From Akkermansia muciniphila (GTDB lineage Bacteria; Verrucomicrobiota; Verrucomicrobiia; Opitutales; Opitutaceae), in NCBI GenBank assembly GCA_945898185.1, contig CAMDHP010000001.1, forward strand, positions 26,534 through 90,533: a stretch of 64,000 nt of DNA. Direction: 5' to 3'. Under the pieces are notes generated by a model, which did no database searches, was not told the DNA's origin, and worked only from the letters and a program-made list of their open reading frames with translations. Position 1 is the first letter of the stretch, and every line of letters begins with the position of its first letter. A program made the position numbers and the translations under genes. Of the stretch, positions 2,208 to 58,738 are shown in pieces.

Positions 2208-2641
2208 GCGCCTAAGACCCTGCCGCTGGGGAGGAAAACGACGATGAGCGCGGCAAGGGGAAGAAACCAAATGGCCGAACCGTTCAGATTTTTAACGCGA
2301 AGACGCGAAGAGCCGATAAGATCGGTAGGTAAATGAATTAAACCTAAATTCGGCAGTTCAAACCGACCGCGGATTACGCGGATCGAGCGGATAAAACAGG
2401 ATACAGAAAATACCACGAACCGAAGGAACTCACCCTGGGGGTGATGCATAGATGTTTGGCAATCGTCTGGTATCCGCGTCCATCCGCGTAATCCGCGGTT
2501 TCCAATGCCGTTTTTAGGCTGAAAGCTAGGGGCGGGGTAGGTATCAGGAGTCCCCTTTGCCTCCGTGCCTCTATGGTGAAAAACTTCAGCGCGTGCGCTT
2601 TGGTTTTGTTTTCGCGGGATTCGTGTGTTTCGTCACCCGCT
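2208..2641. repeat. Gene-free stretch built of palindromic repeat modules
   Basis: No credible gene. An 18-nt perfect inverted repeat, ACCGCGGATTACGCGGAT at 2366-2383 and its complement at 2482-2499, forms the core. The block 2425-2525 has a close match on the opposite strand at 58410-58511. A second module type flanks it: a TTTTTAACGCGAAGACGCG arm near 2287 and a facing, diverged arm (CCTCCGTGCCTCTATGGTG) near 2560. The small open frames here are products of the repeats. The start of queF lies just beyond. Confidence 0.7.
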
Positions 2642-48302: not shown

Positions 48303-48779
48303 TTTGTAGATTGAAAAAGGGGACAGTGGGCTTTTCCCGCGTCAGGAAAAGTGATTTCGAGCCACGGGATTTTTAACCGCGAAGACGACCTGAAGGCGTG
48401 GGGGTTTTGACGTATTCGGTGGGTAACTTGGCAGTGGGAGAGCGCAGAATGTGACCCTCCCTTGGAGTTTCTGTTTATCCGGGGCGCCTTCTGCGTATCG
48501 CTTAAGTGACTCTATAGCATATTTTAAGCTATACGTTTAACGCGACCCTCGGGAGAACACAGAAACTTTGCTCTGCTTAAGTTTCCAACTTTGCGATCTT
48601 CGGTTCGATCTTGGCGTCTTCGCGTTAAAGTCCGAATGCTTGGGGGATTGGTATGCGATTTTTTGCCACGAAAATCACAAAGGTTGACCCCGTCCTCTCC
48701 TGCCCTCCCGCGCGGATAGAGGCGCCATTAGAGTATTTCAAATAGAGTTATAGCCACATGCGCGGATTTAAAAGGTGAG
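48303..48779. repeat. Gene-free stretch with facing TTTAACGCGAAGACG arms and a TTAGAG half-element
   Basis: TTTTAACCGCGAAGACG (48371-48387) faces CGTCTTCGCGTTAAAG (48615-48630). Between them is a TATAGC...GCTATA palindrome near 48516-48536. At 48728-48756 lies a 29-base word that matches 50120-50148 at 23 of 29 positions, all six differences being transitions. No gene is seen. Confidence 0.55.
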
Positions 48780-58280: not shown

Positions 58281-58738
58281 GCCCGTTTCTCCACCCGCGT
58301 GCTGGCGCGCATAGGCACTTCTCGTTGACGCTGTTTCCAAATTGGCAGAAGGCCAATAGCGTCCCGACGATCTGCCGGCGATGGACGCTCCAGACTAAAG
58401 CGTTATAGCATTCACCCTAAAAACGGCATTAAAGAACCGCGGATTGCGCAGATGAACGCGGATACCAGAAGATTGCCCAAGGTCGCTGTATCACCCGGAG
58501 GATGAGTTCCTCTGATGCCAGTCTCCCCTATCTTTCAGACTTTAACGCAAAGACGTAGAGGCGCGTAGATAAGCGGAGGAACGCTTCAGCTCCAGGTCGG
58601 TGCCCCCTTTGCTTCTTCGCGACTTTGCGTTGATAAAGTCTCCTTTACCCGAGACCTTGGTTTTATTCGCTCGATCCGCGTAATCCGCGGTCGGTTTGGC
58701 CTGCTGCTTCTTAGTTCAACAGGAAATTGCTCCGAACG
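58281..58738. repeat. Gene-free stretch: composite palindromic repeat, reverse copy of the 2.4-kb element
   Basis: 58410-58511 matches 2425-2525 on the opposite strand (shared words TATCCGCGT, GCAATCCGCGG-like and GCCGTTTTTAGG). ACCGCGGATTGCGCAGAT (58436-58453) faces ATCCGCGTAATCCGCGGT (58674-58691). Nested inside, GACTTTAACGCAAAG (58538-58552) faces CTTTGCGTTGATAAAGTC (58623-58640). No gene is present. Confidence 0.7.

Follow-up and report, generated by a model that had tools for sequence, protein, structure and literature searches.

A 176-bp MITE family with IS1380-type ends and iteron arms of the kind found around GxxExxY genes

Positions 2343–2518 of the window (the whole 64,000-nucleotide stretch of DNA that was analysed) hold one full copy of a dispersed repeat, here called family 1, which is 176 bp long with its inverted ends included. 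We are confident that it represents a new IS1380-type MITE family of the ordinary kind; in particular, it is very likely (probability roughly 0.9) a gene-less element moved by a transposase made elsewhere. The source assembly is a MAG of 2.26 Mb in 132 contigs and is 92% complete. When window positions 2340–2530 were used as a BLAST query against this whole genome, 83 matching pieces were found, comprising about 30 near-full copies at 74–100% identity (E values down to 6e-96) and fragments. The features of the two window copies are as follows.

2338–2342, no strand: left 5-bp flank TTAAA, an NTNAN target
2343–2518, + strand: family-1 element (copy 1), full copy, 176 bp, from the self match, about 30 relatives and the boundaries
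2343–2364, + strand: left terminal inverted repeat, IS1380 type, CCTAAATTCGGCAGTTCAAACC
2366–2406, + strand: left iteron arm, 9-bp units CGCGGATNN
2430–2444, + strand: central small hairpin TCACCCTGGGGGTGA
2467–2499, + strand: right iteron arm, inverted
2497–2518, + strand: right terminal inverted repeat, IS1380 type, reverse complement CCTAAAAACGGCATTGGAAACC
2519–2523, no strand: right 5-bp flank CTGAA, NTNAN, sharing 3/5 bases with the left flank
about 58416–58715, − strand: family-1 copy 2, full length but interrupted by a nested insertion, with GTTGA / GTGAA as its outer flanks
58436–58468, − strand: right iteron arm of copy 2, inside the block of the original prediction
about 58516–58664, no strand: nested family-2 repeat in copy 2, boundaries approximate
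2289–2311, + strand: degenerate iteron arm TTTTTAACGCGAAGACGCGAAGA, separate from copy 1 and possibly paired with 2560–2583

Family-1 copies aligned with their flanks have abrupt common ends, CCTAGATTCGGCAGTTC on the left and ATGCCGTTTTTAGG on the right, and the terminal pair is CCTAGATTCGGCAG...ATGCCGTTTTTAGG. Each half of the element has on its outside a terminal inverted repeat of 22 bp, followed inward by an inverted arm made up of degenerate 9-bp units (CGCGGATTA CGCGGATCG AGCGGATAA), and a small hairpin, TCACCC...GGGTGA, lies in the centre; the 176 bp contain no gene. Full copies are mostly intergenic by a rough, ORF-based check. Copy 1 is situated between queF and the gene of a PEP-CTERM protein, and copy 2 adjoins a tRNA-Leu gene. 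A degenerate iteron arm (2289–2311) and its possible partner (2560–2583) enclose copy 1, and another such arm lies at window position 48375.

The original prediction was of two blocks of about 100 bp sharing a series of words in the same order, and both blocks are indeed present on opposite strands with those words in order. The repeat is far beyond chance, given the near-full copies in the genome and a match of copy 2 over its right part at 83% identity; the predicted length, on the other hand, was wrong, being 176 bp when the inverted ends are counted. The second block, placed at 58410–58511, is present and inverted but was drawn too short, and only the right half of copy 2 was recognised because a second repeat is nested inside it. 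The original prediction was also correct about the ACCGCGGATTACGCGGAT arms, about the location away from genes and about the lack of an open reading frame. Rather than two copies only and none in relatives, there are many copies here and further copies in relatives.

The nested repeat (L101–L122; window 58516–58664) belongs to family 2, which is another MITE-like family with about 18 copies, arms of AACGCAAAGACGC and ends ATACCAA...TTGGTAT; it is nested in family 1 again at L057, and partly at L054–L056. A further family, family 4 (L102, L107, L111, L112, L120), has arms of ACCACAGAGAACACAGAG and ends CTAGTATGCAGTAACACT...ATACTAG, and judging from these ends we take it to be perhaps IS630-like.

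Family 1 transposes as DNA. Flush exact 5-bp direct repeats bound 13 of the 35 copies with good ends, compared to a mean of 0.96 and a maximum of 7 when the right flanks were permuted in 20,000 trials, and flush direct repeats of 6–9 bp bound none of the 35. The target is NTNAN: 32/35 left and 34/35 right flanks have T as their second base, and 32/35 and 35/35, respectively, have A as their fourth. A 3-bp TNA duplication was our first idea and was dropped for the 5-bp frame because the middle base differed between the two sides. Target duplications are generally not expected of Y1-type transposases.

Insertions into other repeats and comparison with relatives give the state of the target before insertion. 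Copy L024 is inserted in a family-2 repeat, where TTTAA is present twice and the pre-insertion state is shown, and L015 is inserted in a family-4 repeat, uninterrupted copies of which read AGAGAGCTGAACCAG with CTGAA once (CTTAA is the present reading of the left flanking copy at L015). Copy L011 is on the contig to which the window belongs; G003, a congener, has no element at the corresponding site and a single CTCAA in place of the two that surround the element here. At E below 1e-10, family 1 occurs in 6 of the 38 genomes searched, this one included, all of them in one genus. The suggestion that the repeat is a mobile element is thus borne out by its terminal inverted repeats, 5-bp target duplications, empty sites and patchy distribution in the genus, and by IS1380 relatives with the same ends (below).

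Exact duplications are found at only 8 of 29 copies in this genome; of six congener copies for which both ends were measured, five (L064–L067, L069) have perfect ones. Many of the copies here (L001–L029) have NTNAN on both sides, yet the two sides are unlike each other; the congener copies mostly match. Halves swapped between copies were not supported as the source of the mismatches, there being 3 cross-matches against 3.4 expected. Seven of 20 mismatched flank pairs agree in 4/5 bases (3.1 expected), so some duplications are simply old; assembly chimeras or recombination are possible sources of the mismatched flanks in this genome.

The CCTA ends together with the 5-bp duplication led us to consider the IS1380 family. 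In the congener G004, an element (L138/L284) whose transposase gene is broken by a stop reads ATTAG CCTAAAAACGGCGATGGAAACG...CGCCGTTTTTAGG ATTAG, and 19 of 21 bases are alike between its end and the family-1 right end, CCTAAAAACGGCATTGGAAACC. Another element (L286), from a different genus of the same family, has CCTAAAGCCGGCAGTTGA as its left and CCTAAAAACGGCGATTGAAA as its right end, and the asymmetry between these two ends is that of the family-1 MITE. Further IS1380 copies of the bacterial family are flanked by the NTNAN duplications ATTAA, TTTAT, TTCAG, TTTAT and TTGAT. One gene (L136) is an IS1380 transposase by NCBIfam NF033539, above the cut-off, and PF13701 matches occur in the congeners G002, G004, G006, G007 and G014 and also in other genera of the family. 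The hairpin TCACCCTGGGGGTGA resembles, on weak to moderate evidence, one that precedes the transposase gene on its 5′ side in IS1380 elements of congeners; as a link to IS1380 leaders it is weak. We also take the family-1 end to resemble the left end of ISEcp1, CCTAGATTC... ISEcp1, a member of the IS1380 family, produces 5-bp duplications (PMC2887853).

Family 1 has the matching terminal inverted repeats, the 5-bp duplication and the short multicopy form without a transposase of an IS1380-derived MITE; as to an autonomous partner in the same genome, which is usual and not required, no match to PF13701 (IS1380 transposase) was found in this 92% complete MAG. Because no IS1380 gene was found in this assembly, we infer that the transposase acts on family 1 in trans. 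A transposase made elsewhere would bind the CCTA... ends and move the element, duplicating the 5-bp NTNAN target. Regarding the arms, the notion that they are part of the autonomous IS1380 element was not supported, since L136 and L138 have none; on the simplest reading, a gene-less iteron palindrome would have been captured between IS1380 ends and then copied along with them.

The family-1 arms of CGCGGATNN units are of the type that flanks GxxExxY (PF13366) genes. We scored arms by the inverted pair that matched best between the 300-bp stretches upstream and downstream of a gene, with a single threshold of 26, and 59 of 67 sampled GxxExxY loci have inverted arms scoring at least 26, versus 1 of 67 control flanks. 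The first 30 loci (29 from other genomes of the order and one of this genome) score 20–62, versus 15–27 in flanks further out; of 37 more, lower in the hit list, 33 score at least 26 and none of the controls does. The unit sequence differs among loci (CACAGAG, CGCAGAG, CACGGAG, CACGAAG, CGCGGAT and others) and agrees between the arms of one locus; the genes at L353, L227 and L260 lie between CGCGGAT arms. The only PF13366 gene of this genome is located elsewhere, between CACGAAAAA arms. Family 1 has the inverted 9-bp iteron arms of these cassettes and lacks the gene between them, the 176-bp element containing no GxxExxY gene and having no room for one. A D...ExK pattern is kept in the GxxExxY alignment, which fits the Pfam name PDDEXK_3.

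GxxExxY is present in 62 of 132 genomes of the order, and across these 132 genomes a strict arm pattern, AACCRCRRAKNNCRCRRAK, occurs 1236 times, versus about 14 for a reversed control pattern. The pattern is found in 53 of the 62 genomes with GxxExxY and in 8 of the 70 without (P = 9e-19; among genomes of 2.0–3.5 Mb the association has P = 5e-7), P values that are only a guide because related genomes are not independent and the cassette arms add to the counts. The exact arm ACCGCGGATTACGCGGATNRA also occurs in Verrucomicrobia, Planctomycetota, Lentisphaerae, Blastocatellia, Symbiobacteriaceae and other records, with unrelated outer flanks, and 28 of 84 occurrences have an inverted partner, mostly 60–130 bp end to end.

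PF05635 (23S_rRNA_IVP) genes of the order (L159–L188) are flanked by inverted tandem arrays of ~7-bp units (AGGAGTC, GGCTGTA, GGTTAAA), most of the 24 loci outscoring control flanks, and they are possibly a second class of iteron-armed cassette; PF05635 was not found in this genome as a partner gene. Three families of the order each have a GxxExxY cassette (L073, L074, L075), with arm units that differ from one to the next, between genes that we read as gatA-like and gatB-like; either one site was used repeatedly or the arms were rewritten in place.

A site following a gene that we take to be murA-like (L337–L349) is empty in five congeners and occupied in eight genomes including this one. In G011 the site is filled by a GxxExxY cassette; in G005 and G009 the cassette is accompanied by one or two palindromes that have its arms and no gene. 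Gene-free palindromes built of different 9-bp units occupy the site in G008, G000 and G003, and one built of 7-bp units does so in G012 and G013. Thus, closely related genomes do not all have the same iteron palindromes, and those without a gene are neighbours of those with one.

These findings raise the possibility that what moves, or once moved, is the iteron palindrome as such, related to the GxxExxY cassettes but non-autonomous, and that this lineage acquired the IS1380 ends late. The occurrence in many phyla of arms lacking IS1380 ends, the arm-flanked GxxExxY loci, three of them with CGCGGAT units (L227, L260, L353), and the alternation of gene-free and gene-bearing forms at one site in the genus all speak for it. 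Against it, family 1 has its duplicated target next to the IS1380 ends, and these were thus the ends used when family 1 multiplied in this genome; moreover, no enzyme is known to move iteron palindromes. We rate this reading distinctly short of even odds, and it is compatible with an IS1380-driven spread of family 1.

That family 1 is a structured RNA (riboswitch, sRNA or RNA-level terminator), spread and kept for its fold, is very unlikely. The element has a strong predicted fold (z = −5.2), which is due to its long inverted repeat, and most copies are intergenic by the rough check above. However, in 33 copies the pairing is 89.8%, compared to 89.7% in shuffles, the covariation score is reached by 93 of 500 shuffles, double changes are likewise without clear excess, Rfam has no match to any family, and the ends and target duplications are of the DNA transposition type. 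Thus, the proposed copy search and covariance check gave the many copies and no covariation beyond shuffles, and the RNA-forming half of the original prediction is not upheld.

Least probable of all is a REP/REPIN moved by a tyrosine (Y1/RAYT) transposase: family 1 is a short palindromic intergenic repeat, the genome has three Y1_Tnp genes (L032–L034) and GTAG REPs are reported to be abundant in Opitutus terrae (PMC3733652), but the GTAG (or CGTC) end tag is missing from its CCTA...TAGG ends, the Y1 genes have no family-1 arms or units in their flanks, and family 1 has target duplications.

As an IS1380-type MITE, family 1 explains a large part of the small dispersed repeats in this genome. 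The question raised by its core, that of the GxxExxY iteron cassettes, is less ordinary and unproven. We suggest, tentatively and at slightly under even odds, that iteron palindromes and arm-bounded GxxExxY genes form one undescribed class of mobile cassette over many phyla, with a PD-(D/E)XK-type protein and gene-free derivatives, RAYT/REPIN-like with a different enzyme, and that IS1380 ends captured and amplified such a core here. The mobilising enzyme of this wider class is one that we infer, our hypothesis being that GxxExxY moves the cassettes. The class appears to be undescribed: in the open-access literature no relevant paper had any of five arm strings, and three papers name GxxExxY, PDDEXK_3 or PF13366, one of them in passing. 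The core connects short inverted iteron arrays, which are unexplained repeats of environmental genomes, with GxxExxY, a protein that is common and has no known function. Were this connection a causal one, GxxExxY would have the role of mobilising its own cassette and gene-free copies, and that role would become testable.

Among known systems, IS1380 insertion sequences, of which ISEcp1 is the best-known example, share with family 1 the CCTA-type terminal inverted repeats and 5-bp duplications, and members with the same ends occur in the genus and family; they differ in being ~1.5–1.75 kb rather than 176 bp and in having a transposase gene, and those examined are without the iteron arms that family 1 has. 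Other bacterial MITEs (the Correia element, QMITE1, MITEAba12 and BrickBuilt) are likewise short and gene-less, with inverted ends, target duplications and many intergenic copies (PMC10969869), and a Porphyromonas MITE is reported likewise to contain short tandem repeats (PMC4596501). These have different IS parents, and the tandem units of family 1 form long inverted arms as in GxxExxY cassettes. REP/REPIN sequences with RAYT are similar in that palindromes are paired with a gene between the same repeats, as are iteron arms and GxxExxY, whereas family 1 has no GTAG tag and no tyrosine transposase and has 5-bp duplications at its MITE ends. The GxxExxY loci (TIGR04256 / PF13366 PDDEXK_3) share the inverted arms of ~9-bp units, often starting AACC; family 1 differs from them in having no GxxExxY gene and in carrying IS1380 ends outside its arms.
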